Source: Thiorhodovibrio frisius (GTDB lineage Bacteria; Pseudomonadota; Gammaproteobacteria; Chromatiales; Chromatiaceae). Taken from it: a stretch of 64,000 nt of DNA. The notes under the pieces are model-generated. The model was given only the letters and a program-made list of their open reading frames with translations, did not search any database and was not told where the DNA came from. The stretch lies in assembly GCF_033954835.1 (NCBI RefSeq), contig NZ_CP121471.1, positions 3,714,501-3,778,500 of the forward strand, written 5' to 3'. Of the stretch, positions 5,698 through 33,229 are shown piece by piece. A program made the translations under genes and the position numbers. Each line of letters starts with the position of its first letter. Within the stretch, counting starts at the first letter, position 1.

Positions 5698-5747
5698 CAC
5701 AACCAAGCCGCTTCCGCGTTCATCCGGGCTGTCTCGCAAAATATGTT

Positions 5748-6536
5748 CTATGCATTCTTAGAGTCAGCGTCCACGCCATCCAAGAGGGGCACGAGGGTTG
5801 CTGCAAGATTGGCGAAATCCTGAGCGCCACGACACTTTGGCGCATAGCTACGAACCGGCTTGCCAACGCTGAAGGCTTCCGCCAAACGGATGTCGGAGCG
5901 AATGCCGGCCAGGACTCTCAGGGCGCCGAATTGACGCACGACCTCGCCGGTTACCTGACGATGCTGGCGGACGTATTCCGCCGACATGGTCGGCAGAAAA
6001 CCGAGGATTTTCAGGTGCGGATTGGCGCCGCCCGAGATGATCTTGAACAGCACCCGCATCAGTTGCCGCACCCCTTCCCGCGAGAGATGGTGCGGAACAT
6101 AAGGCACCAGCACCCAATGCGCCGCCGTCAGTGCGTTGAACAGCAAATGATCCAGGGAAGGAGGCGTATCCAAGATCACCAGATCGAAAGCCGAGGCAAT
6201 GTCCTGGTGCGCGAGCGCCTGGGCCAAACGATCTTGACCGCCCACACCGCTACCATGCTCGAAGCGTTGATCGGCAGGGCTCAGGGAGAGATTCGCAAAG
6301 GCGCTCGGGTAGACGGCAACCGAGAGTTTTGCCAGAGGATCGAGAAAGATGCTATGGGCCGTGGGCGAATCCCGGTCCAATTTCAGGCCCAGCCCAGCGG
6401 CACAATGGCCCTGTGAGTCGAGGTCAACCAGAAGAACCCGACGCCCGAGCGCGGCCAGTTCGGCGGCGAGATTGACTGCCACCGTGGTCTTGCCGGTCCC
6501 GCCCTTGCGGTTGGAGACGGCAATGATCCGGGGCAT
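5748..6536 (-). CDS. ParA-like ATPase, chemosensory-array positioning
   Basis: This 262-residue Walker-type ATPase has the deviant Walker A KGGTGKTT near its N terminus, LLVDLDSQGH and LVILDTPPS. ATG 6536 is chosen because MPRIIAVSNRKGGTGKT is the normal start of the family; an upstream extension would overlap the preceding gene. No ParB or parS is visible nearby. It is the last gene of the chemosensory operon, 16 bases after the membrane MCP. ParA-type proteins next to che genes (ParC in Vibrio, PpfA in Rhodobacter sphaeroides) position polar or cytoplasmic receptor arrays. That role is inferred here from location. Confidence 0.85.
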   Translation of the reverse strand: MPRIIAVSNRKGGTGKTTVAVNLAAELAALGRRVLLVDLDSQGHCAAGLGLKLDRDSPTAHSIFLDPLAKLSVAVYPSAFANLSLSPADQRFEHGSGVGGQDRLAQALAHQDIASAFDLVILDTPPSLDHLLFNALTAAHWVLVPYVPHHLSREGVRQLMRVLFKIISGGANPHLKILGFLPTMSAEYVRQHRQVTGEVVRQFGALRVLAGIRSDIRLAEAFSVGKPVRSYAPKCRGAQDFANLAATLVPLLDGVDADSKNA

Positions 6537-20241: not shown

Positions 20242-21295
20242 CCTGATTAGCAAGATTCCTCAGCAGCCCGAAGCCAGCGTTGCGGGCGTGGTCCAATCGT
20301 GACCGCTGCGACGAGCAAGCGATTTTGAATTGTGTCGAGGTCGAAGCGGCGGTTGAAGCGATAGGCGAAGGTGGAAAGATAACGCGTGCCATATTTGGCG
20401 AAATCAAAGGCGTGGTAAGCGCCGCCGAAGCTGGTTTTGAGGTTGCCCAGGACGGTGTTGACCCAAGCAAATTGCGGGAGATCCCTTGGCTTGAGGGCAC
20501 CAACGACGATGGGGCTGTGCTGGCATCCAGCATCGGTCACGCCAGCAAAGCAGCCCAAGCCGTCGGACGTTACCCGACATCCAGGGGTCAAGTCACTGGC
20601 TGCCCAGTTGGCAATGGCCTTGCGAGTGAAGCCTGGGACGGGCGCCATTTTCGCATACTGCGGATGCCCCTCGGGTGTCAGCGAGACGGCCGCAACGAAG
20701 GGCACTTTATTCTCCGAGCCCCGTCCGGCTGTGCCGCCGGTGAGCTCTCCGCCGAGGTAGACATCATCGACCTGGATGTCACCAACGAGCGTATAGGCGC
20801 TGTCGCGTTCGCACATCGCCTGCATGAGCTTGTGTTGCAGCAGCCAAGCGGTCGGATAGCTGACGCCGAGTAGGCGTTTCAGTGCCAAGGCCGACAGCCC
20901 GGTCTTGGCCTGGCTGATCAAATAGATCGCCAGAAACCAGAGCGTCAGTTCCAGATGCGTGCCTTGGAATAGGGTCCCGGCGATCAGCGAGGTTTGCTTG
21001 CGGCATGCTTGGCACTGAAAGGTTTTGTGTTTGCTACCTTTGAGAATATACGCATGGGCATGCCCGCAGTCGGGACAACGAAACCCCTCAGGCCAGCGTG
21101 CCTGCTCCACGGCGCTTTCGCACTGCGCCTCGGTGCCAAATTGCGCGAGAAAATCCGGCAACGACAGGCCGGTTTGGAATTGAACGCGATTCATCGGCAT
21201 GGTTTGGTCCTGAGGCAGAATGAGGTAACTCAGTGTGCGCCCTTTTTCCTTTTGTCGTCGGAAATTCTGGTGGCTGAAGAAGCTTGCTAATCAGG
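20242..21295 (-). mobile_element. IS1595-type insertion sequence with 8-bp target duplication
   Basis: The element is 1054 bp, bounded by inverted ends CCTGATTAGCAAG (from 20242) and its complement CTTGCTAATCAGG (to 21295), with further imperfect pairing inward. The flanking octamers are identical: tggccttt at 20234-20241 and 21296-21303. An 8-bp duplication fits the IS1595 family. It has one gene, the transposase, whose stop codon lies inside the left end. The perfect duplication indicates a fairly recent insertion. Confidence 0.95.
20247..21200 (-). CDS. IS1595-type transposase
   Basis: The 317-residue protein has an N-terminal zinc ribbon (CPDCGHAHAY followed by CQACRKQTS), a helical DNA-binding segment and a DDE-type core. 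First Asp lies in GDIQVDDVYLGGEL, second in RVTSDGLGCF, and the late block reads YLSTFAYRFNRRFDLD. In many relatives the late block has Glu where this protein has Thr (LSTF); if that is the catalytic position, the enzyme may be weakened. ATG 21200 is preceded by CAGGA; an alternative ATG is two codons inside. The gene fills the element from end to end. Confidence 0.92.
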   Translation of the reverse strand: MPMNRVQFQTGLSLPDFLAQFGTEAQCESAVEQARWPEGFRCPDCGHAHAYILKGSKHKTFQCQACRKQTSLIAGTLFQGTHLELTLWFLAIYLISQAKTGLSALALKRLLGVSYPTAWLLQHKLMQAMCERDSAYTLVGDIQVDDVYLGGELTGGTAGRGSENKVPFVAAVSLTPEGHPQYAKMAPVPGFTRKAIANWAASDLTPGCRVTSDGLGCFAGVTDAGCQHSPIVVGALKPRDLPQFAWVNTVLGNLKTSFGGAYHAFDFAKYGTRYLSTFAYRFNRRFDLDTIQNRLLVAAVTIGPRPQRWLRAAEESC

Positions 21296-21503
21296 TGGCC
21301 TTTTGGGTCAAATGAATGCAGAGGGACCGTGCCACAGAACAGCGGTTTTAGGCAAGTGAAATTTGCGGGCGATGCGGAGCTGAGCCCCACTCGTTCCTGC
21401 GCGCAGCGGCAACTGATTATGTCCGTTTCCCCCTGTAGTCGTGAAAGCGAATATAAAAACAGAATAATCGCTCGGCTCTTTTATACAAATGAGGAGTATT
21501 CAG

Positions 21504-22787
21504 ATGGCTTCTTCCACACGCGCAGCCTATACCATCCGGCATCCGATGAGCCAAGTAACCGTGCGTTTAGTGTTGGTCGGCGTGATAACCAGCCTCTTGA
21601 TGGGCCTAGCGGTGTGGGGATTTGAAACCGAACGCATTGATGATCGGGTACTTGGGATGGCGGTCGCCGCCGCAAACCACATCGATAGTGAGGCGCTCCA
21701 GCACCGCAACCTGGACCAAGAAGGGCCAGGCGCCCTGCGAACCCAGGCCAAAAATGCGCTGTACGAGCAATTCGTTGTGGTGGAAATTTACAACCACGAC
21801 CGAGAAAAGCTCGTCGAAGAAGTCGCGCCGGGTTGGGAATCACTGGAAGAACTGCTCGCCGCTCAACATCATGCCTTTCCTATCGACGACGAGGTGCACT
21901 ACGAAAAGCACTTTATTCTGAACCAGTTGGTGTTAGTGGTGCTGGTTCCGGTAAAAAACGCTGACGGGATCATCAGCGGCTACCTGGAAGGCGTTTATGT
22001 CACGGCCCCGGAAATCCTCGCTCGCCTGAAACAGGACGTTATCATTACCGTACTGGTGGTCATCGCGGCCGTTCTGCTCACTTCGCTGGTGATGATTCCA
22101 GTGATTTTGTCCCTCAATCGGGTTGTTTTAGAGCGCTCCCGACAAGTCCTGCGCGGCAACCTGGAGACCCTGGACGCGCTGGGTGCCGCTATCGCCAAGC
22201 GGGATTCGGACACCAACATCCACAATTATCGCGTGACCCTGCTGGCGCTTGAACTGGCGGCTGCAGCGGGCATGAAAGAAGACAGTATTCGCGATTTAAT
22301 GATCGGTGCATTCCTGCACGATGTCGGAAAAATCGGCATCAGCGATGCCATCCTACTCAAGCCGGGCCGCCTCACCCCAGAGGAGTTCGACATTATGCGA
22401 ACCCATGTCAAGCTTGGAGTGGACATAGTCGCAAGTTCTGAATGGCTACAAAAAGGCCGGGAAGTGGTGGAATTTCACCATGAAAAAATCGATGGCTCAG
22501 GCTACATGCGCGGACTCAAAGGTGAAGACATCCCACTTGCTGCGCGCGTTTTTGCCATTGCCGATGTCTTCGACGCCCTGACCTCCAAGCGACCCTATAA
22601 AGAACCCATGCCCCTGGAAAAGGCCATGGCCATCATAAAGCAGGACGCCGGAAGCCATTTCGATGCTCGATTAGTGGATCTGTTTCGCGACATTGCACCG
22701 GCGCTTTATGCGGAACTCTCCACTATGGACGATTCGGCTGTGATCGCTCGAGTCAGAAGCAAAGCTGAACATTACTGGCTTGGCTAA
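21504..22787 (+). CDS. Membrane HD-GYP phosphodiesterase with extracytoplasmic sensor
   Basis: A 427-residue protein with two membrane segments (about 20-40 and 185-210) flanking a ~145-residue periplasmic domain. A C-terminal HD-GYP domain follows, with HNYRVTLLA, FLHDVGKIGI, HHEKIDGSGYMRG and ADVFDALTSKRPY. The metal-binding histidines and the HD pair are present, but the signature GYP reads GYM. HD-GYP enzymes hydrolyse c-di-GMP to GMP or pGpG; the Pro to Met change may alter activity or partner binding. ATG 21504 is chosen because GAGGAG lies 7 bases upstream; ATG 21489 precedes that ribosome site. The gene stands alone and converges on the Sia operon. Confidence 0.9.
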   Translation: MASSTRAAYTIRHPMSQVTVRLVLVGVITSLLMGLAVWGFETERIDDRVLGMAVAAANHIDSEALQHRNLDQEGPGALRTQAKNALYEQFVVVEIYNHDREKLVEEVAPGWESLEELLAAQHHAFPIDDEVHYEKHFILNQLVLVVLVPVKNADGIISGYLEGVYVTAPEILARLKQDVIITVLVVIAAVLLTSLVMIPVILSLNRVVLERSRQVLRGNLETLDALGAAIAKRDSDTNIHNYRVTLLALELAAAAGMKEDSIRDLMIGAFLHDVGKIGISDAILLKPGRLTPEEFDIMRTHVKLGVDIVASSEWLQKGREVVEFHHEKIDGSGYMRGLKGEDIPLAARVFAIADVFDALTSKRPYKEPMPLEKAMAIIKQDAGSHFDARLVDLFRDIAPALYAELSTMDDSAVIARVRSKAEHYWLG

Positions 22788-22937: not shown

Positions 22938-24668
22938 TCAATCATTCTTGTGAATCGCGATGAGCGTCATATCATCGCGGCGCGCCTGCTCACCCCGATA
23001 GGCCGCAAGTGCCTGTTCAAGCGCGAGCATCCAGTCATGCAGCTTGGCTTTGCGGCTGCGCTTGAGTCGTTCGATGAAGCGGCGGCGACCCAGGAGCCGC
23101 TGCGGCTCGCCGCCCATCTGGTCGGTCACGCCATCGCTGAGCAGCAGACACAGATCGCCGGGTGCGATCTCCAGCCGATGCAGTTCGATCCGGCGCGGTG
23201 GCGGCAGACTGGCGTAGCCGAGGTGCGCATGGCCGCCGCGATAGACCTTCACCCGGTCATCGGCGTCGAGCTGGATCAACGCAATGCCGGCGCTGGCGAA
23301 ACGCGCCTGGGTGCAGTCCGGGTTGAGACAAAGAACCGCCGCTTCAAGCCCATCGTCGGCAACGCTGTCGTGAGCATCCTGACGCATGCGTTTGCGAACC
23401 AGATCATCGAGTGCATAGAGTATCTCAACCGGGTCGCGCAATTTCTGCTCGTGCAGAATGCGCTCCAGGGCCGAGGCCACCACTAGCGTCATCAGGGCGC
23501 CAGGAACCCCGTGCCCCGTGCAGTCGGCGAGCACGATGAGCGGCTGATTCGCCAGGGATTCAAACCAATACCAGTCGCCGCCCACGGCTTGCAGTGGCTC
23601 CCAATGCACGGCGATTTCAGCCTGGTGCAGGCGGATGCGATCCGACGCGGGCAGAATGGCGTTTTGAATGCGCCGCGCATAATTGATGCTGGCGAGCAGT
23701 TGATCATTGGCATCGGCGAGCCGGGCATGGGTGCTGTCAAGTTCGCCGAAGGCCTGCTCGAGCGCGGATTTTTGCTGGTCAAGATCCTGCATCGCGCTGT
23801 GCAGCGCACAGGTTCGCTCCTGAACGCGGGCTTCGAGTTCCTGCGTCAGCGCACGCAGATCCTGTTCAGCCACATCGCGCTGATTGAGACCCTGCTGAAA
23901 GGCGCTGAGCAGAGCGCCCATGCGCAGATTCAACATACCCAGCTCGTCGCGCTGGTGTCCGCGCAGTCGCGGCGGTGTCCAGTATCCCGGTGCGCCGGGG
24001 TCGACCTCGGTAATGGCATCGGACAGTCGCAGAATCGGGCGGGTGATCATCCAATAGAACACGGCCACCACCAGCGCCGAAACCAGCAGGATTTGCACCG
24101 TGGTCACCAGCAGGTTGTTGCGGGCTTGGACCAGAAAGCTGGCGGCCAGGGCATTGGCCGAGAGTTCCAGGCTGAGGGTGCCGATGGGTTCGCCCGGCTC
24201 TGTGGATGCCTCGGGGGCGCTCTGAGGATCATGCAGGACCAGGCGGTAATGCAGGATGTCGGCAAAGGAGGGCGCCAGCGCGCGCACCAGAACCGTCGGC
24301 GGCGATGCCGATGCGGGTTTGATCTCAGCGAGCACCTGCCCGAAGTTGTCGCGCAGCTCGGCGGCGGCAAGGGCAGGCAGGGCATGGAGTCCATTGATGA
24401 GCTGGCGCGCCAGCTCGGGATGCATTTGGAAAGCCGCTTCGGCTGCGGAGCCGCGCACCAGCGCGAGCGTGCGGTCGATTTCGGCCTGGAGGTCGGCGCG
24501 CATGCCGCGCCATTGCAGATAGAGCTGAGCGGCGCCGGTCGATAAGCTCAGTAGTGACACCACCAGCAGGGTGATGGTGGCCTGCTTGAAGGTGAGGCCG
24601 CGCCAGAAGGTCACCTGGGCGTTCGCCAAGTCGGGGTGTGGCGTGAGCGGTTCAGTGGGCGCCTTCAA
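22938..24668 (-). CDS. siaA: SiaA-like membrane PP2C/SpoIIE phosphatase with HAMP
   Basis: The 576-residue protein has an N-terminal membrane segment (about 28-50), a ~130-residue periplasmic domain, a second segment (about 185-207), HAMP, a coiled coil (about 260-335) and a C-terminal SpoIIE-type PP2C domain. Metal-site motifs are present: AVGGDWYWF, LADCTGHGVPGALM, LLLSDGVTDQ and RDDMTLIAI. In P. aeruginosa SiaA dephosphorylates SiaC in response to an external cue, which lets SiaC activate the cyclase SiaD. Here it is the last gene of a SiaB-SiaC-SiaD-binding protein-SiaA operon, overlapping the binding-protein gene by 17 bases, so that protein is a likely ligand input. Confidence 0.88.
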   Translation of the reverse strand: MKAPTEPLTPHPDLANAQVTFWRGLTFKQATITLLVVSLLSLSTGAAQLYLQWRGMRADLQAEIDRTLALVRGSAAEAAFQMHPELARQLINGLHALPALAAAELRDNFGQVLAEIKPASASPPTVLVRALAPSFADILHYRLVLHDPQSAPEASTEPGEPIGTLSLELSANALAASFLVQARNNLLVTTVQILLVSALVVAVFYWMITRPILRLSDAITEVDPGAPGYWTPPRLRGHQRDELGMLNLRMGALLSAFQQGLNQRDVAEQDLRALTQELEARVQERTCALHSAMQDLDQQKSALEQAFGELDSTHARLADANDQLLASINYARRIQNAILPASDRIRLHQAEIAVHWEPLQAVGGDWYWFESLANQPLIVLADCTGHGVPGALMTLVVASALERILHEQKLRDPVEILYALDDLVRKRMRQDAHDSVADDGLEAAVLCLNPDCTQARFASAGIALIQLDADDRVKVYRGGHAHLGYASLPPPRRIELHRLEIAPGDLCLLLSDGVTDQMGGEPQRLLGRRRFIERLKRSRKAKLHDWMLALEQALAAYRGEQARRDDMTLIAIHKND

Positions 24669-25461
24669 TCGGATCTGTCCTCTCCGTGTCGGCCTGACCC
24701 AGCCCCCAGCGCGCCTTGATGGCTTGCACCTGAGCGGCGGACCGCTCCAACCAGTGATCGAAGGCTTGCAAGACCTGCGGATATTTCAGGGTGGAGAGAT
24801 GGTAATGATCGCGCGAATGCGGCAGGCTGGGATCGAACACCAGTGCTTCGGGCTGGCCGATGGCCTGTTCGAGCTGATAGGCCGCGACCTGGGTGTTGGC
24901 ATAGGCGGCATCAACGCGCCCGGCGATGGTCTGGCGCATCAGTGCTTTGACGTCCAGACTCTTGCGCAACTGGACCTGGCCCTGGCTAATCTCCTGCTGC
25001 CAGGCCCAGGGCGTGAAGCCGATCACCGTGGCCAAAGTCTTGACGCTGGCGCGACCCAGGCCCGCGCGTTCGGGGCGCACCAGGGTGCCATCGGTGAAGG
25101 CCAGCAAGGGCCGGCTGTAGTGAATCTCGAAGCCCGCACGTTTATCGCGCTGCCAAGCGGGATGGTCGGGTAGCTTAAAGTCGATCTGGCCAGTGAGAAA
25201 ACTGCTCAGCAGACGCGAGACAGGGAGCGGGCGATAGTCGAAGCGGATGCCCTGATCCTCGGCAAAGGCGTCGAGCAGTTCCGGCAAGACGCCCATGCAG
25301 CGGCCATCCTGGCAAGCATGCACGGGGAGATAATCGATCTGCTCGACACCGACGCTGTAGGTCTCGCTTTGCGCGGTCGCTTCCGAGAGAACCAGCAGCG
25401 TCAGAGCGCAGAGGCCAAGCACGGTTTTTAAGTGATGCTCAGTCACGCGTGATTGGTGCAT
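24652..25461 (-). CDS. Periplasmic amino-acid-type binding protein in the Sia operon
   Basis: About 269 residues with a signal peptide (TVLGLCALTLLVLSEATAQS) and an SBP_bac_3-like fold: GVLPELLDAFAEDQGIRFDY, LTGQIDFKLPD, VDAAYANTQVAAYQLEQAIG. No permease or ATPase lies nearby, so it is more likely a sensor than a transporter component. The start is uncertain: ATG 25461, or GTG 25446, which overlaps the siaD stop; both give coupled translation. The stop overlaps siaA by 17 bases. It probably presents a ligand to the periplasmic domain of SiaA. P. aeruginosa siaABCD has no such gene. Confidence 0.85.
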   Translation of the reverse strand: MHQSRVTEHHLKTVLGLCALTLLVLSEATAQSETYSVGVEQIDYLPVHACQDGRCMGVLPELLDAFAEDQGIRFDYRPLPVSRLLSSFLTGQIDFKLPDHPAWQRDKRAGFEIHYSRPLLAFTDGTLVRPERAGLGRASVKTLATVIGFTPWAWQQEISQGQVQLRKSLDVKALMRQTIAGRVDAAYANTQVAAYQLEQAIGQPEALVFDPSLPHSRDHYHLSTLKYPQVLQAFDHWLERSAAQVQAIKARWGLGQADTERTDPIEGAH

Positions 25462-26287
25462 CCGCTGAATCCAGCGTGTCCGCGACCACCTGATTGCGTC
25501 CGGCATCTTTTGCGCGATAGAGGCTGCGGTCAGCGCGCGCGATGGCGCGGTTCAGCGGCTCATCCTTGGCGAGTGACGCGACCCCGATGCTGAGTGTCAT
25601 TTGGATGGGGCCACGCTGGCTTTGAATTTGCGCCTGAGCCAGGCGCTCGCGCAGGCGTTCGGCGACCTGAAGACCGTCGTCGAGGGTGGTTTCCGGCAGA
25701 ATACCGAGAAACTCTTCCCCGCCCAAACGTCCCGCTACATCACCCTCGCGCAATTCAGAGCGAAACAGGTCTGCAAAATGGCACAGCACGTCGTCGCCGA
25801 TGCCGTGACCATAGCAATCATTGACCTGCTTGAAATAATCGAGATCGCACAGCATCAGGGTCAGCGGCTGTTGGGTGCGACGGTGGCGGCGGACCTCATG
25901 CTCACCGAGTTCCAGAATATGCCGACGGTTGCTAATGCCGGTCAGTTCATCCGTGGTTGCCATCCGGCGTAGTTCGGCCTCGAGCACCTTGCGGTGCTGA
26001 ATCTCTTCATGCAGTTGGTCATTCAGGGCCTGGAGTTTTGTGGTCTGTTCGGACAGTAGCTGATTGGCGCGGTGCAGATCGAGCTGCAGCCGATCACTGA
26101 TGCGCAGCAGCCGGCGCGACTCGCGATAGCTGCGGCGGTAGGCATCGCGCAGCAGGCTGAAGCCTTCGGGCAGGCCCTCGGGAATGCGTTCCAGGCTTTG
26201 CACCATGGCTTCCGCCTGGTCCAGCATTTTCTCCTCGTAGGCAAAGAGCGTGAAGCTCGCGTCAGGGGATTCGATGGGTTGGATCAT
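25439..26287 (-). CDS. siaD: SiaD-like diguanylate cyclase
   Basis: The 282-residue soluble protein has an N-terminal helical, coiled-coil region (about 1-115) and a GGDEF domain (about 115-270) with TGISNRR, DLDYFKQVNDCYGH and RLGGEEF. An REGD five residues before the loop fits the I-site. In P. aeruginosa, unphosphorylated SiaC binds the N-terminal stalk of SiaD and switches on c-di-GMP synthesis. The gene follows siaC by 11 bases and overlaps the binding-protein gene, fitting that mechanism. Confidence 0.9.
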   Translation of the reverse strand: MIQPIESPDASFTLFAYEEKMLDQAEAMVQSLERIPEGLPEGFSLLRDAYRRSYRESRRLLRISDRLQLDLHRANQLLSEQTTKLQALNDQLHEEIQHRKVLEAELRRMATTDELTGISNRRHILELGEHEVRRHRRTQQPLTLMLCDLDYFKQVNDCYGHGIGDDVLCHFADLFRSELREGDVAGRLGGEEFLGILPETTLDDGLQVAERLRERLAQAQIQSQRGPIQMTLSIGVASLAKDEPLNRAIARADRSLYRAKDAGRNQVVADTLDSADAPITRD

Positions 26288-26298
26288 GGCGAGATATC

Positions 26299-26688
26299 CT
26301 AGCCTTGGGGGAGCGGCACCAGTTCAAATTCTCCGTGCTCGAAGTCTTCCGCGAAGTCCTCGCCAAACTCCTGCATGGCGTCATCCTCGGGGTCGAAAAA
26401 CCAGCGTACGCGCGTCGAGACCCCGCGCGATGCAGCGTGCTCGAGGAGCTGAAACATGTTCATCAGCGCCTTGGCGCTGCTGCTGTTGAAGTAGGTCATG
26501 CGCAGTTCAAGCTCGACGCGCGCATCGACAAGACCGTCGAGATATTCCGCCATCGCCTTGAGCGGAGGGCCAAAAAAAGCCGCCGCATCCTCCGGATAGG
26601 ACTCACCCGCCAGGGAGAGGCGATGATGCTCAAAATCAAACAGGAGCGCGGGGGAGCGTTCGGTGGCTTCGCGGTGGATCGGTTGCAT
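26299..26688 (-). CDS. siaC: SiaC-like (DUF1987) phosphorylatable antagonist
   Basis: The 129-residue protein matches DUF1987 in length and pattern: a short N-terminal segment, SPALLFDFEHHRLSLAGESY, LRMTYFNSSSAKALMNMF, VRWFFDPEDD and an acidic end. In P. aeruginosa SiaC is phosphorylated on a Thr by SiaB and dephosphorylated by SiaA, and only the free form activates SiaD. The matching position here appears to be a Ser in FNSSS. ATG 26688 is used because a longer frame would add ~67 unlike residues. It lies between siaB and siaD. Confidence 0.88.
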   Translation of the reverse strand: MQPIHREATERSPALLFDFEHHRLSLAGESYPEDAAAFFGPPLKAMAEYLDGLVDARVELELRMTYFNSSSAKALMNMFQLLEHAASRGVSTRVRWFFDPEDDAMQEFGEDFAEDFEHGEFELVPLPQG

Positions 26689-26794
26689 GCTGTCTCGGCG
26701 CGGACTTAACTGGGCGCGGATTGCGGGTGACCGGATTGGATGACCTGATTGGATGACCGGGTGAGTGGCCTGGCCGAGTGATTGATCAGGCAAC

Positions 26795-27349
26795 TTAAAT
26801 ATAGGCCTTGAGACAGAAAAATGTCTGCTGCTGGCCAACGGGAACGAAGTCGAACTCAATTGGCCGACTCGAACGACGCGCGATCTCAATCAGACCGACA
26901 TTGCCGCCGATGCTATCGGACTCTGCGGGTTCTCTGAGTTTTTCCTTGTAAAGCGCCTTGAGCTCGGTCTTGTCCATTTTCGCCATGGCGCTGAGGCGCT
27001 GATCGAGTGCAATGGCTTCTTGCTCGCGCACCACATTGCCACAGACGACAAAAAAGCCATCCGCCTCGCGACCGACCGAGACCATGCCCGAGCTGAGTGC
27101 CGTCGCTTGGCTGGGCGGGTCGATCAAGCGCTCCGATGAATACCGCAGGATATTTTGCACCTGTTCGACAAAGACGGAGAAAACGCGCTTGGTGACGTTC
27201 GCGTCGGTGTCTTCGAGGGTCATTTTCTGTTTCAGCGCTTCGCCGAGGGAGTACAGAATCCCCTCGGACAAAAAACCGACGAAGGAGAAAATCAGACCGC
27301 GATTGCCGGTCAGTCGCTGAAACTCGAAATAGTCACGGGCGAGATGCAT
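26795..27349 (-). CDS. siaB: SiaB-like protein kinase (DUF6272)
   Basis: The 184-residue protein resembles the SiaB family: GLIFSFVGFLSEGILYSLGEAL, VEQVQNILRYSSERL, GFFVVCGNVVREQEA, and NVGLIEIARRSSRPIEF, where the N and G residues recall the ATP-binding boxes of anti-sigma-factor-type kinases. In P. aeruginosa SiaB phosphorylates SiaC and so turns off SiaD. ATG 27349 follows GGGAG at normal spacing. It is the first intact gene of the operon and overlaps the upstream truncated receiver by 17 bases. Confidence 0.85.
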   Translation of the reverse strand: MHLARDYFEFQRLTGNRGLIFSFVGFLSEGILYSLGEALKQKMTLEDTDANVTKRVFSVFVEQVQNILRYSSERLIDPPSQATALSSGMVSVGREADGFFVVCGNVVREQEAIALDQRLSAMAKMDKTELKALYKEKLREPAESDSIGGNVGLIEIARRSSRPIEFDFVPVGQQQTFFCLKAYI

Positions 27350-27590
27350 CGGTGGACTCCCACGGGCAGCGCCTGACATTGGGGGCTCTGAGGACCGGTC
27401 GCATCACCGCGCCGACACCGGCTCTTTGAGCCATCATGTTAAAGGTCGCGCCAGTGCGGCACAATAGCCGAATAGCCGCGACAGCCTCGCGCGTTGCCAG
27501 TACGTGATACTCCAGCTTGAGCAGATTGACAAGACTGCGCTGGTTGTCAATCTGATCGTCAACGATCAGAATCGAATGCGGGTCTGTCAT
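27333..27590 (-). pseudogene. Truncated response-regulator receiver
   Basis: The first ~43 residues are a good receiver start (HSILIVDDQIDNQRSLVNLL, HVLATREAVAAIRLL). After that the sequence no longer resembles the fold: the expected phosphoacceptor strand and everything behind it are missing, and about 40 unrelated residues follow to the stop. It has a GAGGG ribosome site before ATG 27590, so it may still be translated and coupled to siaB. It is likely the remnant of a REC protein that once headed the operon. Confidence 0.75.
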
Positions 27591-27645
27591 TCAAAACCCT
27601 CTAAACAGTCAGGAAAAAGCCCATGGATCCCGCCGTGAATCCCCC

Positions 27646-28716
27646 ATGAAACACTCGCTTATGACTCAGCAAGCCGTCACCGCTAGCACCGACAAACCAA
27701 CGATTCTTGCCGTGGATGACGCGCCAGGGGATTTGAAAATTCTTGCTAAGATTCTCAAAGACGACTACCGCGTGAAACTGGCTTGCAATGGGGCCGCAGC
27801 GCTTGAAGCGGCAAACGCGACTGAAAAGCCGGATTTGATTCTGCTCGACGTGAAGATGCCTGATCTTGACGGCTACGAAGTTTGCCGACGCCTGAAAAGC
27901 AACCCGTTGACTCAGAATATCCCGGTTATCTTCGTCACGGCTTTAGATAAATTCCAAGGCGAAACCGTCGGCTTCGACCTAGGCGCGGCGGATTATATTA
28001 CAAAGCCGATTAAACCCGTGATTGTCCGGGCGCGCGTGCGAACGCAACTCGCGCTCTACGATCAGACACGCCACCTCGAAACCCTGGTGCGAGAGCGCAC
28101 CCAGGCGCTTGAGCGGACCCGGCTGCAAGTTGTAGAAATACTCGGGCGTGCGGCCGAGCTGAAGGATGAGGAAACCGGTCTGCATGTGGTGCGCATGAGC
28201 CGCTACGTCGGTCTGCTCGCACAAGCCCATGGTCTGGAGGAAGACTTCTGTAAGTTGTTGCAGCATGCCGCCATGATGCACGACGTGGGCAAGATCGGCA
28301 TCCCGGACCACATTTTGCGCAAGCCCGATCGCCTCGACGAGGCCGAATTTGCTGAGATCCGCCGACACGCCGAAATCGGCGCCAGAATCATCGGCCAGAA
28401 CGCCGACGACAGCCATTCACTGATCGAGCTTGCGAGCATTATCGCGCTTACCCACCACGAAAAATGGGATGGCAGCGGTTATCCGCACGGACTTGCCGGG
28501 GAAGACATTCCTTTGGTCGGGCGCATCGCCGCTGTTGCCGATGTGTTCGATGCCTTAACCTCTGACCGGCCCTACAAAGCCGCCTGGAGCATCGAGGACG
28601 CTGTCGCTCTGCTCAAACGCGAGCGCGGACGTCATTTTGATCCGCATCTGGTGGATAGTTTTGAGAAGATTTTGCCGCGCATCATCGCCGTGCGCGAGGC
28701 ATCTCTGGACAAATGA
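27646..28716 (+). CDS. REC-HD-GYP response regulator (phosphodiesterase)
   Basis: The 356-residue protein has a receiver (about 18-140; acceptor Asp in LILLDVKMPDLDGYE, Lys in YITKPIKP) and an HD-GYP domain (about 155-345). The latter is complete: HVVRMSRY, MMHDVGKIGI, ALTHHEKWDGSGYPHG and ADVFDALTSDRPY. It should hydrolyse c-di-GMP under phosphorylation control. It is divergent from the truncated receiver/Sia operon with a ~55-base gap, so promoters may be shared. Start could be ATG 27646 or 27661. The kinase is not obvious; hybrid kinases downstream are candidates. Confidence 0.93.
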   Translation: MKHSLMTQQAVTASTDKPTILAVDDAPGDLKILAKILKDDYRVKLACNGAAALEAANATEKPDLILLDVKMPDLDGYEVCRRLKSNPLTQNIPVIFVTALDKFQGETVGFDLGAADYITKPIKPVIVRARVRTQLALYDQTRHLETLVRERTQALERTRLQVVEILGRAAELKDEETGLHVVRMSRYVGLLAQAHGLEEDFCKLLQHAAMMHDVGKIGIPDHILRKPDRLDEAEFAEIRRHAEIGARIIGQNADDSHSLIELASIIALTHHEKWDGSGYPHGLAGEDIPLVGRIAAVADVFDALTSDRPYKAAWSIEDAVALLKRERGRHFDPHLVDSFEKILPRIIAVREASLDK

Positions 28717-28901
28717 CCAGCCGCGTCAGGACGCAGGCATGAAGCACGCCTTGCCTGCGAGAAGCACCGGCAGATAAAAGGTTTCGCCACATAATCAACG
28801 GCGCTAAGACCATCGGGAGCGCTACCCTTTCCAAGACGGAAAACTCTTTTGCTACAGCTCTATATATGGTTGGCCGAGCCAGGTCACGAGGATCAAGTGC
28901 C

Positions 28902-30035
28902 ATGAATGTTCTTTGCTTAAAAAACTGCCTAAGCTCACTCCCGGCTGCTGCGGCCCGGATGCTGTTTCTGCTTATGGTGCTCTGGCCAAGCGCCTATGTG
29001 CTGGCCGAATCGATCGAGTCGAGTGCCCTGTCGGATCAGCAGCAGCAAGGGGACTCACCGCCGCGCGAGCTGGTGTTCTACAACTGGACCGCCTACGTCG
29101 ATCAGGACGTGGTCAAGGCGTTCGAGGAAAAATACAACGCGCGGGTCGAGCAACGGTATTTTCAGTCCGCCGACGAGCGCGATGAAACCCTGATGCGGAA
29201 TGAGGGCAAGGGCTTCGATGTGCTGGTGGTGACGGCCGGCGATCTGCCGCCTTACATCAAGCGCGGTTGGTTGCAGCCGCTCGAAAAGGCAGCCATTCCC
29301 AATCTGGAGCATATCGACCGGCGCTGGATTGAGGGCTTTGAAGGTTTAGACCAGTACGCCGCGCCTTACCTCTGGGGGACAACCGGACTCATTTGGCGCT
29401 CCGATTTGATCGATCAGCCGCTGACGAGTTGGGGCCAGTACTATGCGCCCCAAGATGCCTGGACTGGCCATGTGATGGTGCTCAATCAGTACCGGATTGC
29501 CTTTGGCATGGCGCTGAAATCCCTCGGGTATTCGTTCAATTCAACAGTGCCTGATGAAATTGACGAAGCCGCCGCCCTGCTGCGGGCGCAAAAGCCATTC
29601 GTGCAGAATTACGGCTATTTCAAGACCGATGCCGACTCGGGCATCGTCTCCGGGGAGACCTGGATCGGTCAGACCTGGAATGGCGATGCGCTGATGCTGA
29701 TGGAGCGCAATCCGGCGATTCGCTACATCGTGCCTAAGGAAGGCGGGGAGTTGATGATCGATTATCTGGTCATACCCGCCGAGGCGCGCGAGCCCGAACT
29801 GGCCAATGCCTTCATCAACTGGTTACATGAGCCCGCCAACGCTGCGGCCTGCGCCCAAAGCCTGCAATTCGCGACCACCAATCTGGCGGCCAAAGCGCTG
29901 CTGCCGCAAGACTTCCTCAACAATCCGGTGATCTATCCGCCGCCTGAGGTGTTCGCGCGCAGCGAGGTGCAACAGCCGCTGCCGGCGGAGATTCAGGCAC
30001 GCATGATTAGCGTCTGGGCGCAGTTGATCAATTAG
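28902..30035 (+). CDS. Polyamine-type (PotD/PotF) periplasmic binding protein
   Basis: About 377 residues with a hydrophobic leader (MLFLLMVLWPSAYVLA) and a PotD/PotF-type body: ELVFYNWTAYVDQDVVKAFE, FDVLVVTAGDLPPYIKRG, YLWGTTGLIWRSD, QTWNGDALMLMERNP. ATG 28902 has GAGGA upstream. No polyamine permease or ATPase genes are nearby; the next gene, 80 bases on, is a membrane kinase-GGDEF protein. The arrangement recalls NspS-MbaA of V. cholerae, where a PotD-like protein passes norspermidine signals to a c-di-GMP enzyme. A sensory role and polyamine ligand are inferred. Confidence 0.88.
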   Translation: MNVLCLKNCLSSLPAAAARMLFLLMVLWPSAYVLAESIESSALSDQQQQGDSPPRELVFYNWTAYVDQDVVKAFEEKYNARVEQRYFQSADERDETLMRNEGKGFDVLVVTAGDLPPYIKRGWLQPLEKAAIPNLEHIDRRWIEGFEGLDQYAAPYLWGTTGLIWRSDLIDQPLTSWGQYYAPQDAWTGHVMVLNQYRIAFGMALKSLGYSFNSTVPDEIDEAAALLRAQKPFVQNYGYFKTDADSGIVSGETWIGQTWNGDALMLMERNPAIRYIVPKEGGELMIDYLVIPAEAREPELANAFINWLHEPANAAACAQSLQFATTNLAAKALLPQDFLNNPVIYPPPEVFARSEVQQPLPAEIQARMISVWAQLIN

Positions 30036-30115
30036 CTGACCCGCATCCTGATGCTTTTAATCAGTTTCCATTTCCGCCTGTTCTCACCCGAAAACCTGTT
30101 GCTCGTGCCTGACTG

Positions 30116-33100
30116 ATGCCACTGCGGCTCAAACTGCTGTTATTCGTTCTGCCGCTCGTCATCGGCCCGTTGCTTGGGCTCGGCTGGCTGGCCTACGACG
30201 GTCTGCGCACCAATGCCGAGACGACGCTGCTGCGGGAAATGGACACTCTGCTCGAGCAGGTAACGCTGAGCGAGGAAACCCACCGCCGCACGGCGCTCGC
30301 CAATGCCAAGCTATTCGGCGGCTCCAATCTGCTCAAGCGCTATCTGTTCGCACCCGAGGATGAGCGCGTCAGCTTTCTACTACTGCCGCTGCTGAATCTG
30401 TTCGCGAGCTATCACGACGCCTATGCCGACTATGGCGACATCCGCCTGATCGACCCGGACGGCAAGCAACTGGCGCGCTATCTGGCGGACGAGCATGGCA
30501 GCGCGTCGGCGTTGGTGGGCTTGGATGACTATCTCGACGCGCTGCGCGCGAGCGACCAGCCAGCGCTGGCCCGCTATGTGCGGAACCAAGACGGCGAGCC
30601 GCGGTTGCTGGTGGGACTCAAGCTGGTGTTTGTCGATCCGGTGTTCGAGGACAACAGCTTCGCCGAGCCGTCCTTGCGCGGTTTTTTGTTACTGGTGATT
30701 TCGCCTGAGCATCTGCGCCAGCAGGTCGAGAAGGGCAGTTTTGGTCGCAACGGTCGCATTCTCTTTGCCGATGCTGAGGCAAGACGGCTGTTTGCCGACG
30801 GGGCCAATCCGGCTGGTGAGTGGCTTTCCGCAAGTTTGCACGCCTCGGTGACGGCGGCAACGAGCGCTCATAGCGTGCAACGAACCGAACAAGCCGGACA
30901 TGGCAATCTGGTCAGCGCGCGCGAGCTGACACCCAATCTGTCGCTGATTGCGCTCTTGTCGGAGGACGAGCTCGACGCCGCCGGGGCGGCCCTGGGGCGC
31001 AAGGTCGTCATCATTGCCCTTGTCACCCTGTTGCTCGCCTCAACCCTGCTGCTGATCGCGCTCCATCTGCTGGTGCTGCAGCCGGTTCGGCAGCTCGAGC
31101 GCGGTGCCCAGGCCATCGGCGCCGGCAATCTGCAAATGCGGCTGGTGGTGCGCGGCCGTGACGAGCTTGCTCATCTGGCGGCAGTGTTCAATCACATGGC
31201 GGCCAACCTGCAGACCTCGCAGCAGGAAAAGGACCGCGCCCAGCAGGAGGCGCTCGACAGCAAGCAGCTCGCAATCGACAGCCTGCGCAAGGCTGACCGG
31301 CTAAAGGATGATTTTCTCGCCAACACCTCGCATGAGTTGCGCACGCCGCTGCATGGCATCATCGGCCTGGCGGAGAGTCTGCGCGGCGGCGCCGCTGGCC
31401 CACTGACAGCGGCGACTGATGACAATCTGCGCCTGATCATCGCTTCCGGACGGCGGCTGGCAACCCTGGTTAACGATATTCTGGACTTCTCGCGGCTGCG
31501 TCATCGCGAGCTGCGGCTAAATCTCACTGCCGTGGATGTCCGGGCCGTTTGCGAGCTGGTCTTGCAGCTGGTGGCGAGCCTGGCCGAGCCCAAGGGACTG
31601 GAGTTGATCAACAAGGTGCCTCAGGGGCTGCCGCCGGCGCTAGCCGACGAGAACCGCCTGCAGCAGATTCTCTACAACCTGCTCGGCAATGCCATCAAGT
31701 TCACCAAGCAGGGCTGGGTGCAGGTCTGTGCCGAGGTGGATGACGACGGTCGGATTGCCCTGCGCGTCTGCGATTCCGGCCCAGGTATTGCGCCGGAGCA
31801 GCACGAGGCGGTCTTTGCCTCCTTCGAGCAACTCGACAGCGGCGCCGGGCGGGTGCATGGGGGCACCGGGCTCGGCCTCGCGGTCACCCGCTCGCTGGTG
31901 CAGGCGCTGGGCGGCAGTATTTCGCTCGAATCCCAACCCGGCGCTGGTGCCTGCTTCAATTTCACCTTGCCCGTGGCCGACCCGACAGCCCAGGCAGCCG
32001 GCCAGGCGCTGGCGGCTGACATGGCGCCTTCTGCGATGGCAGAAGCAGAAGCGGGAACAGCGCAAGCGCAGATGCTGCCCGGGGCGGACCGCCTGGTCGG
32101 CGCCAGCGACGCCAGCGATACCACCGACGCTATGCTGCGCGATTGGCGCGGCAACGGCCAGCTCGTGCTGGTGGTGGATGATGATCCGGTTAACCTGCGG
32201 GTGCTGGACAACCAGCTTGGCATCCAGGGATTCCGCGTCCAGACCGCTCCCGACGGGGAGCAGGCCCTGGCTCTAATGGCCGCCGTCGGGAGTGACCAGA
32301 GCGATGGCGCACCCAAGGATTGGATTACAGGCCCACCCTCAGACGTGCCCGAAGCTATGCACGGAGTTCTGCCAGCCGAACAACCCAGCGTGGTGCTGAT
32401 CGATGTCATGATGCCGCATATGAACGGCTTCGAGCTGTGCCAGCGGTTGCGGCAGCGCTTCGGTCCGGACGAACTGCCGATTGTGTTCCTAACCGCGCGT
32501 AATCGCGAGGGCGACATCCTGCACGGCTTTAGCGTCGGCGGCAACGACTACCTGCCCAAGCCCTTCTCGCGCGGCGAGCTGATCGCGCGCGTTCATGCCC
32601 ATGCCAGTCTGGTCGAGCGCACCCAGTCGCTGCGACTGCTGACGCGCGAGCTCGAACAGCGTGTGACTGCACGGACCCACGAATTGGAGGCGGCACGGGC
32701 GGAAATGGAACGCCTGGCGATGCTCGACGGCCTGACCCAGCTACTCAACCGCCGCGCGCTCGATCTGGCCGTGGAGCGAGAATGGAGTCGCGCACAACGC
32801 CATGCGCAGCCGCTCTCGGCGCTGATGCTGGACGTGGATTTCTTCAAGGCCTACAACGACCGCTACGGTCATCCGGAAGGCGACCGCTGCCTGCAGGCAG
32901 TGGCCGACGTGATGTGCGAGCAGGCGCGCCGCGGCGGCGACCTGGTGGCACGTTACGGTGGCGAGGAGTTCTGCGTCCTGGTCGCGGACGATGCCGACCA
33001 GGCACTGCCGCTGGCCGAGCGCATCCGTGCCGCCGTCGCCGCGCTCGGCATCGCGCACGATGACTCTGAGGTGGCCGACCATGTCACCGTCAGCATTGGC

Positions 33101-33229
33101 GTGGCAACCCGGGTGCCGGATGGCGCAATGCCAGCATCGGCGTTACTCGAGCGCGCCGATGCCGCGCTCTATCGGGCCAAGCGCCAGGGCCGAAATTGCG
33201 TATTGGTTGATCGTGGTCCAGACGATTGA
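30116..33229 (+). CDS. Membrane hybrid kinase-REC-diguanylate cyclase
   Basis: The 1037-residue protein has TM1 (about 5-27), a ~270-residue periplasmic domain, TM2 (about 298-325), HAMP, HisKA (His near 405 in NTSHELRTPLHG), HATPase (about 505-625, with NAIKF and GTGLGLAV), a receiver (about 685-850), a coiled coil and a C-terminal GGDEF (RYGGEEF near 947, RGGD I-site upstream). The receiver contains a ~30-residue insertion before the acceptor Asp in LIDVMMPHMNG. Kinase, receiver and cyclase in one chain means sensing could directly set c-di-GMP production. The preceding polyamine-type binding protein is the probable ligand carrier. Confidence 0.93.
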   Translation: MPLRLKLLLFVLPLVIGPLLGLGWLAYDGLRTNAETTLLREMDTLLEQVTLSEETHRRTALANAKLFGGSNLLKRYLFAPEDERVSFLLLPLLNLFASYHDAYADYGDIRLIDPDGKQLARYLADEHGSASALVGLDDYLDALRASDQPALARYVRNQDGEPRLLVGLKLVFVDPVFEDNSFAEPSLRGFLLLVISPEHLRQQVEKGSFGRNGRILFADAEARRLFADGANPAGEWLSASLHASVTAATSAHSVQRTEQAGHGNLVSARELTPNLSLIALLSEDELDAAGAALGRKVVIIALVTLLLASTLLLIALHLLVLQPVRQLERGAQAIGAGNLQMRLVVRGRDELAHLAAVFNHMAANLQTSQQEKDRAQQEALDSKQLAIDSLRKADRLKDDFLANTSHELRTPLHGIIGLAESLRGGAAGPLTAATDDNLRLIIASGRRLATLVNDILDFSRLRHRELRLNLTAVDVRAVCELVLQLVASLAEPKGLELINKVPQGLPPALADENRLQQILYNLLGNAIKFTKQGWVQVCAEVDDDGRIALRVCDSGPGIAPEQHEAVFASFEQLDSGAGRVHGGTGLGLAVTRSLVQALGGSISLESQPGAGACFNFTLPVADPTAQAAGQALAADMAPSAMAEAEAGTAQAQMLPGADRLVGASDASDTTDAMLRDWRGNGQLVLVVDDDPVNLRVLDNQLGIQGFRVQTAPDGEQALALMAAVGSDQSDGAPKDWITGPPSDVPEAMHGVLPAEQPSVVLIDVMMPHMNGFELCQRLRQRFGPDELPIVFLTARNREGDILHGFSVGGNDYLPKPFSRGELIARVHAHASLVERTQSLRLLTRELEQRVTARTHELEAARAEMERLAMLDGLTQLLNRRALDLAVEREWSRAQRHAQPLSALMLDVDFFKAYNDRYGHPEGDRCLQAVADVMCEQARRGGDLVARYGGEEFCVLVADDADQALPLAERIRAAVAALGIAHDDSEVADHVTVSIGVATRVPDGAMPASALLERADAALYRAKRQGRNCVLVDRGPDD

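Follow-up and report, generated by a model that had tools for sequence, protein, structure and literature searches.

What input does a Sia-type switch receive when the gene for a periplasmic binding protein lies among its own genes? The question is raised by a locus in a 64,000-nucleotide stretch of the Thiorhodovibrio frisius genome (contig NZ_CP121471.1, positions 3,714,501 to 3,778,500; hereafter the window), in which genes of the siaB, siaC, siaD and siaA types, predicted to set synthesis of the biofilm messenger cyclic di-GMP (c-di-GMP), are joined by a gene for a family-3 solute-binding protein (SBP). We consider it quite probable that these five genes form one unit in which the SBP provides a ligand-dependent input by docking on the periplasmic sensor domain of SiaA. 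This reading starts from what was observed directly, namely the gene order, the overlaps between genes, the co-occurrence of SBP and sensor, the presence of the same sensor on several types of output, and the predicted folds; from these we infer contact between the SBP and SiaA, and its control by ligand.

The Sia-type operon and its products

Five co-directional open reading frames (ORFs) on the minus strand, read from 27349 to 22938, give the order siaB-siaC-siaD-SBP-siaA. They are listed below with the basis of each assignment and with the proposed docking site.

26795..27349, minus strand: siaB, SiaB-type kinase of SiaC (NCBIfam SiaB_fam_kinase; alignment to 6kko_A)
26299..26688, minus strand: siaC, SiaC-type STAS-like phosphoprotein (Pfam SiaC; alignment to 6kko_C/6k4f)
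25439..26287, minus strand: siaD, SiaD-type diguanylate cyclase (GGDEF; alignment to 7e6g_A; motif scan)
24652..25461, minus strand: SBP gene, family-3 periplasmic solute-binding protein (sub-threshold PF00497, profile, model fold)
22938..24668, minus strand: siaA, SiaA-type PP2C (SpoIIE) phosphatase (SpoIIE; PP2C part aligned to 6k4e)
24120..24515, minus strand: SiaA periplasmic sensor domain, approximately residues 52-183, proposed SBP docking site (model; LapD-type match)

The original prediction had recognized SiaB, SiaC, SiaD and SiaA in the order B-C-D-(binding protein)-A, with the binding-protein gene overlapping both of its neighbours. ORFs and family matches confirm that order, with key residues retained, and both overlaps were found: the SBP gene, from its ATG at 25461, shares 23 nucleotides (nt) with siaD, and at its stop codon 17 nt with siaA, read from a putative TTG start at 24668. 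At the other end of the operon, siaB has an additional in-frame ATG at 27379 and is separated from siaC by approximately 105 nt, assuming a siaC start at 26688. With first starts assigned mechanically, the SBP/siaA joint in 17 relatives takes the form of a 17-nt overlap (7), a 4-nt overlap (4), a gap of 12-27 nt (4) or a longer overlap (2). Chance overlap of unrelated ORFs was ruled out, because all five genes recur in order in other genomes. The source genome contains one SiaC gene.

SiaB scored 203 bits against its NCBIfam model (cut-off 85), and residues 17-183 of its 184 align with Pseudomonas aeruginosa SiaB (6kko_A; E 9e-22), the glutamate region included; the catalytic glutamate has been named E61 (PMC7647112), and in our reading of the alignment its equivalent would be the E of VFVEQVQN. 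SiaC scored 128 bits against the Pfam SiaC model (cut-off 24.5) and aligns with 6kko_C/6k4f (E 4e-19). Because NSSS stands here opposite the NTSS of P. aeruginosa, the putative phosphosite would be the serine in that motif; NSSS is also present in 16 listed relatives with the B-C-D-SBP-A arrangement, and many of the listed SiaC proteins likewise have serine at the site. SiaD (Pfam GGDEF, 156 bits) aligns with P. aeruginosa SiaD (7e6g_A) over stalk and GGDEF domain (E 5e-34), contains RxxD and GGEEF, and carries one RISDR motif in its stalk according to a motif scan. SiaA comprises a transmembrane segment, a periplasmic PAS-like domain, a second transmembrane segment, a HAMP-like region (20.9 bits, below the cut-off of 25), a coiled coil and a PP2C domain (SpoIIE, 84 bits) that aligns with 6k4e (E 7e-34) and retains the GGD, DCTGHG and RRDD motifs. 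The components of a Sia switch are assembled in this operon: a SiaB kinase with its glutamate, a SiaC with a serine at the putative phosphosite, a stalked GGDEF cyclase and a membrane PP2C with metal-binding motifs. Because all four proteins score under the cut-offs of the NCBI equivalog models (SiaA 188/700, SiaB 114/225, SiaC 86/150 and SiaD 185/290, in bits against cut-off), we class them on sequence as Sia-family members and not as close SiaABCD orthologues.

The product of the embedded gene, with a signal peptide at approximately residues 1-30 as judged by eye, scored 23.9 bits against PF00497, below the gathering cut-off of 26.4. A profile of 18 members of its family matches solved amino-acid binding proteins (AncQR/ArtJ; best E 8e-6), and the predicted model (pLDDT 93.7) has a two-lobe fold that matches solved family-3 SBPs with Z scores of 19.6-21.6 over 205-227 residues among the best 50 matches listed. 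Counting matches within 1 Z unit as tied, these include the first-ranked 3h7m, a histidine-kinase sensor domain (Z 21.6), and the RmcA domain 7ejg (Z 20.1). Positions that do not vary among 46 family members, such as D64, P68, D69, W73 and Y157 of the mature protein, may line a cleft. Amino-acid SBPs have an aspartate that we take to hold the alpha-amino group of the ligand; because this position is Asn, Ser or Asp in the present family, an ordinary amino acid ligand should not be assumed. A role as part of an ABC importer was rejected, no permease or ATPase being found among the ten window proteins scanned around the SBP gene, a scan that did not extend to the surroundings of its relatives.

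In a model of SiaA residues 1-282 (pLDDT 85.6), a periplasmic alpha/beta domain is framed by two long helices. Among solved structures, its best single-domain match comes from a Legionella LapD orthologue, whose periplasmic domain (4u64) aligns over 131 residues (Z 10.7, root-mean-square deviation 3.6; Foldseek E 3.5e-3); over residues 1-282 it is outranked by an integrative WalK model that matches over the helices too. Family models were matched below their thresholds: CHASE8 at 16.1 bits (gathering cut-off 27), and an NCBIfam model of kinases adjoining YfiR-like proteins at 30.5 bits (cut-off 194). The resemblance lends support to the proposed docking, in that LapD-type domains are known to bind a periplasmic protein, as in LapD-LapG. 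The contention that the P. aeruginosa system is without this part is likewise supported: similarity to the P. aeruginosa SiaA model is best over residues 308-572 only (a second stretch came without a position), SiaC loci arranged A-B-C-D gave no match to the sensor at E 0.1, and P. aeruginosa SiaA is reported to respond to membrane perturbation through its own N-terminal region (PMC12834913). P. aeruginosa-type SiaA seems, from these comparisons, to have another sensor.

In P. aeruginosa, SiaB phosphorylates SiaC, SiaA dephosphorylates it, and free SiaC activates SiaD (PMC8457831; PMC7647112). From this work and the conserved residues, a corresponding cytoplasmic cycle can be proposed here, the five genes acting as one signalling unit: SiaB would phosphorylate SiaC, the membrane PP2C phosphatase SiaA would remove the phosphate, and unphosphorylated SiaC would bind the SiaD stalk and turn on c-di-GMP synthesis. 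The SBP, secreted to the periplasm and holding a small ligand between its two lobes, would dock in a ligand-dependent manner on the PAS-like domain of SiaA and alter phosphatase activity through the transmembrane, HAMP and coiled-coil segments, and hence SiaC and SiaD. Docking on this domain to tune the phosphatase is the most likely role of the SBP.

Association of the SBP with one sensor domain

We interrogated genomes of the same order and class (at most 400 per rank) for SiaC loci; 27 of 210 genomes of the order contained 29 loci, and 10 of 369 genomes of the class, the source included, contributed 11 further, for a total of 40. The siaB-C-D-SBP-A order, carried by purple sulfur bacteria and certain relatives, was found in 21 distinct loci, comprising the window, 17 loci of its order, and three (L098, L104 and L124; L numbers denote loci) from Rhodocyclaceae and Rhodospirillaceae. 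Conservation of the gene order had been put forward as a check on the prediction, and an order unique to this genome can now be dismissed. At E < 1e-60 the SBP itself was found in 18 of 204 genomes of the order, the source and 17 others, all with the B-C-D-SBP-A arrangement, although in one (L083) the contig ends before siaC. Of 60 named loci of the SBP family, 14 proved to be Sia operons, including those of Roseospirillum, Rhodospira and a Rhodocyclaceae genome; 11 of the 14 coincide with loci of the order set and were counted once. The named locus nearest to the window is that of Rhabdochromatium marinum (L097).

The sensor is present in 18 of the 40 SiaC loci, and in all 18 the operon includes a free-standing gene for a family-3 SBP, in 17 cases an orthologous one between siaD and siaA. 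In the remaining locus (L092) the SBP is from another subfamily (49.4 bits) and its gene immediately precedes siaB, with a 35-nt overlap under mechanical starts; a search of that genome with the alignment of SBP orthologues gave no match. This locus had been a candidate for a sensor locus lacking an SBP, which the family-3 gene rules out, and because its SBP belongs to another subfamily and precedes siaB, the exact gene order is not fixed. Among the 22 SiaC loci without this sensor, 13 of them of A-B-C-D order, a free-standing SBP gene occurs in one (L084), SBP domains are fused inside phosphatases in two (L071 and L089), and no SBP was found in the stretches examined of the other 19. The association of free-standing SBP with sensor has a nominal Fisher p of 2e-10, uncorrected for kinship among genomes that are not independent. 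Because a narrow SBP profile misses other SBP subfamilies, these assignments were rechecked with a broad home-made profile, for which L092, L199, L200, L071 and L089 were seeds, making their own matches circular, and by a PF00497 search of 20 genomes, among the matches listed.

The pair also occurs apart from Sia proteins. In five of the 60 named SBP-family loci (L099-L102 and L114) the SBP gene is immediately followed by one for a histidine kinase (HisKA and HATPase) with the same sensor at its N terminus (E 4e-38 to 7e-43). A search with the sensor alone gave matches in 10 of 369 class and 27 of 204 order genomes. Two of the resulting loci join the sensor directly to a GGDEF domain and possibly represent one-step versions of the same receptor: L200 (4566-7393) has two tandem family-3 SBP genes before the sensor-GGDEF gene, with a 4-nt overlap between the latter and the nearer of the two, and L199 (5104-7512) has an SBP-like gene (15.1 bits, sub-threshold) in that position. 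In trees obtained by quick searches and rooted at midpoint, one sensor clade (SH-aLRT 95) contains 28 rows, comprising 22 PP2C phosphatases, five kinases and one cyclase (L200), and a family-3 SBP gene is present in the operon of all 28. Eight of these rows had been found through the SBP; the other 20, from nine genera mostly of one family, had not. The placement of L199 and L200 in the SBP tree was not usable, their branches reaching approximately 10 changes per column.

Because the SBP and the sensor co-occur in SiaC loci and also on histidine kinases and, in the form of related family-3 SBPs, on a cyclase, the pair looks portable. We regard it as probable that the SBP and the PAS-like domain constitute a portable two-protein receptor serving at least three outputs (PP2C phosphatase, histidine kinases and diguanylate cyclase), with an exchangeable SBP, and that the window holds its ligand-gated phosphatase version, which would control c-di-GMP by way of protein Ser/Thr phosphorylation, with the SBP acting in trans. 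The original prediction had assigned the SBP as a defined ligand input to SiaA; the notion of an input is sustained by the conserved order, by the contrast of 18 of 18 with 1 of 22 loci, and by the same sensor following the SBP on kinases, whereas to call the ligand defined is premature.

Several loci recovered in these searches have other arrangements. In the Rhodocyclaceae operon L098 an extra kinase gene (5086-6111) lies between siaC and siaD; its product has HisKA and HATPase domains and a SiaD-like stalk with a RLLHIGDRLQ motif, and is possibly a SiaC-controlled histidine kinase. The second SiaC locus of a Rhabdochromatium-like genome (L071:5715-14581) encodes a 1789-residue dCache/SBP_bac_3/HAMP/PAS/SpoIIE protein, SiaB, SiaC and a GAF-HD protein (HD-GYP-like), which suggests a Sia switch with a phosphodiesterase output. 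L089 (620-15501) encodes SiaB, SiaC and four PP2C-type phosphatases identified by a home-made search (two were Pfam-scanned and are SpoIIE), three of them with SBP_bac_3-like domains. In L084 (5748-12177), genes for SBP-like proteins stand immediately ahead of one for a phosphatase that resembles SiaA but has another type of sensor; SiaB and SiaC follow, and an Hpt/HATPase/CheX-like protein takes the place of the cyclase. Likeness to the SiaD stalk in products beside SiaC in L071 (5e-5) and L084 (6e-4) was set aside as too weak, with no RISD motif.

Contrary evidence and alternative explanations

A number of observations weigh against the docking of the SBP on this sensor or qualify the evidence for it. 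L084, a SiaC locus that lacks the sensor, has free-standing SBP genes, 36 nt before the phosphatase and with an in-frame stop in one stretch, and this weakens a strict one-to-one rule. The correlation of SBP distances with sensor distances (r 0.77 over 18 pairs, a value reached in 0 of 5000 permutations) speaks for the pairing, but is expected of any two genes inherited together. Adjacency is built in for the five kinase loci and for L098, L104 and L124, because these were found through the SBP. As many as 41 of the 60 named SBP relatives, 24 of them from Pseudomonas or Stutzerimonas, lie beside no sensor of this type; in the stand-alone cases checked the neighbours were phospholipase D-like, TonB receptor and chemoreceptor genes, and in L103 the contig ends just after the SBP. 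In L209 (genome G426) an SBP-family gene precedes a kinase without a recognized sensor of this type. In one genus of the same family, eight genomes encode kinases of 628-648 residues whose sensor is related but falls outside the clade, and no SBP gene was found beside them. Finally, the SBPs linked to Sia genes are not monophyletic: the L098, L104 and L124 sequences group with kinase-linked and stand-alone SBPs, and the closer kinship of SBPs from Sia loci outside Chromatiaceae to the kinase-linked ones would fit either exchange of outputs or transfer.

One of those eight loci (L196, the one on which Pfam was run) has IspD, YgbB, TruD and enolase as neighbours of its kinase. A pairing of the sensor with YfiR-like proteins was considered; no YfiR link was found, because the small genes beside the L196 kinase and in L201 encode YgbB and a Tyr-tRNA deacylase, respectively. 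Class genomes also gave sensor matches at E 1e-10 to 1e-20 (L201-L207), and genome G180 a second match (L208); these show mixed outputs on long branches and were not used. Near L204 an SBP-like gene lies tail to tail with the sensor gene.

The explanation that competes best, unlikely as we judge it, treats the SBP as a protein ligand of SiaA that conveys no small-molecule input and instead reports envelope state or its own abundance, in the manner of YfiR-YfiN or LapG-LapD. The LapD-like sensor, with its weak CHASE8 match and its distant match to the model of YfiR-adjacent kinases, accords with such a role, as does the Asn, Ser or Asp at the presumed ligand-binding aspartate. It is countered by the confident two-lobe fold that the SBP retains, with invariant residues that may line a cleft, and by the service of different SBP subfamilies to one sensor clade (L092 and L200), which fits changing ligands.

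Second in order, and also unlikely, is the proposal that the SiaA sensor binds a small ligand of its own or senses the membrane directly, while the SBP just buffers or delivers ligand. PAS-like periplasmic domains often bind ligands themselves, and the related sensors of the single genus mentioned above have no SBP gene beside them. P. aeruginosa SiaA, moreover, is reported to sense membrane perturbation (PMC12834913), but it seems to carry another sensor, and within the sensor clade of the present SiaA the operon always includes a family-3 SBP gene. Very improbable is a merely co-transcribed SBP with a role in uptake or elsewhere and not on SiaA, which would suit the 41 relatives that lie apart from this sensor but meets the absence of ABC permease or ATPase genes among the ten proteins scanned, the occurrence of SBP with sensor in 18 of 18 SiaC loci against 1 of 22 others, and the retention of the pair on kinases and a cyclase.

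Surroundings and comparison with known systems

The operon is flanked in the window by two genes identified in a Pfam scan.

21489-22787, plus strand: HD-domain protein, HD-GYP-like
27646-28716, plus strand: receiver-HD protein, HD-GYP-like

Upstream of siaB and on its strand, at 27330-27592, a short frame starting MTDPHSILIVDDQIDNQRSLVNLL resembles, by eye, a decayed response-regulator receiver. Three promoter-like sites were counted against 1.0 (standard deviation 1.0) in shuffled sequences, none of them on the minus strand just before siaB, and three terminator-like sites against 3.7. Elsewhere in the window, at 28866-33229, an SBP_bac_8 gene directly precedes a gene for a protein with weak dCache, HAMP, hybrid kinase and GGDEF domains, an arrangement like that of NspS-MbaA; two SBP_bac_3 matches (61355-62410) lie within a 1299-residue open frame encoding a fused SBP sensor; and the open frame at 20247-21200 resembles, by eye, an IS1595-type transposase.

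The closest known relative of the switch is SiaABCD of P. aeruginosa, with which it shares the kinase SiaB, the phosphoprotein SiaC, the stalked cyclase SiaD and the PP2C phosphatase SiaA, residues at known sites being kept. Differences lie in gene order (A-B-C-D there, B-C-D-SBP-A here), in the SBP gene within the operon and the different SiaA sensor, in the residue at the putative SiaC phosphosite (Thr there, Ser here), and in the SiaD stalk, where P. aeruginosa has two RISD motifs and the present protein one; a pair of conserved motifs in the stalk of P. aeruginosa SiaD is reported to mediate its binding of SiaC (PMC8457831). What Sia-type switches respond to is poorly defined, and a soluble binding protein belonging to the switch would put the input within reach of simple binding assays. 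That kinases and a cyclase carry this receptor too provides, in addition, a natural swap experiment in which one receptor drives different enzymes.

Control of c-di-GMP by periplasmic proteins takes several forms elsewhere. In Vibrio cholerae the binding protein NspS acts in trans on the membrane sensor MbaA to set c-di-GMP (PMC8967002), but there polyamines are the ligands and the sensor doubles as a GGDEF/EAL enzyme, in contrast to the partner-switch phosphatase and family-3 SBP described here. In Salmonella Typhimurium the sensor-cyclase STM1987 requires ArtI, a periplasmic protein that putatively binds arginine, in order to respond (PMC8846402); its dCACHE sensor is on the cyclase, and a partner switch is not involved. 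The family-3 fold also serves c-di-GMP input in RmcA of P. aeruginosa and further fused SBP sensors (PMC8846402), in cis within one polypeptide, whereas the SBP here is a separate protein. In YfiBNR and LapD-LapG a membrane c-di-GMP protein is acted upon, at its periplasmic domain, by another protein of the periplasm, but YfiR and LapG are not SBPs and the outputs differ. We found no description, in open-licence PubMed Central texts, of an SBP in a Sia operon or acting on a Sia-type phosphatase. Input to c-di-GMP signalling from an SBP acting in trans is already known from NspS-MbaA and ArtI-STM1987; the new part is a Sia switch with a probable SBP input.

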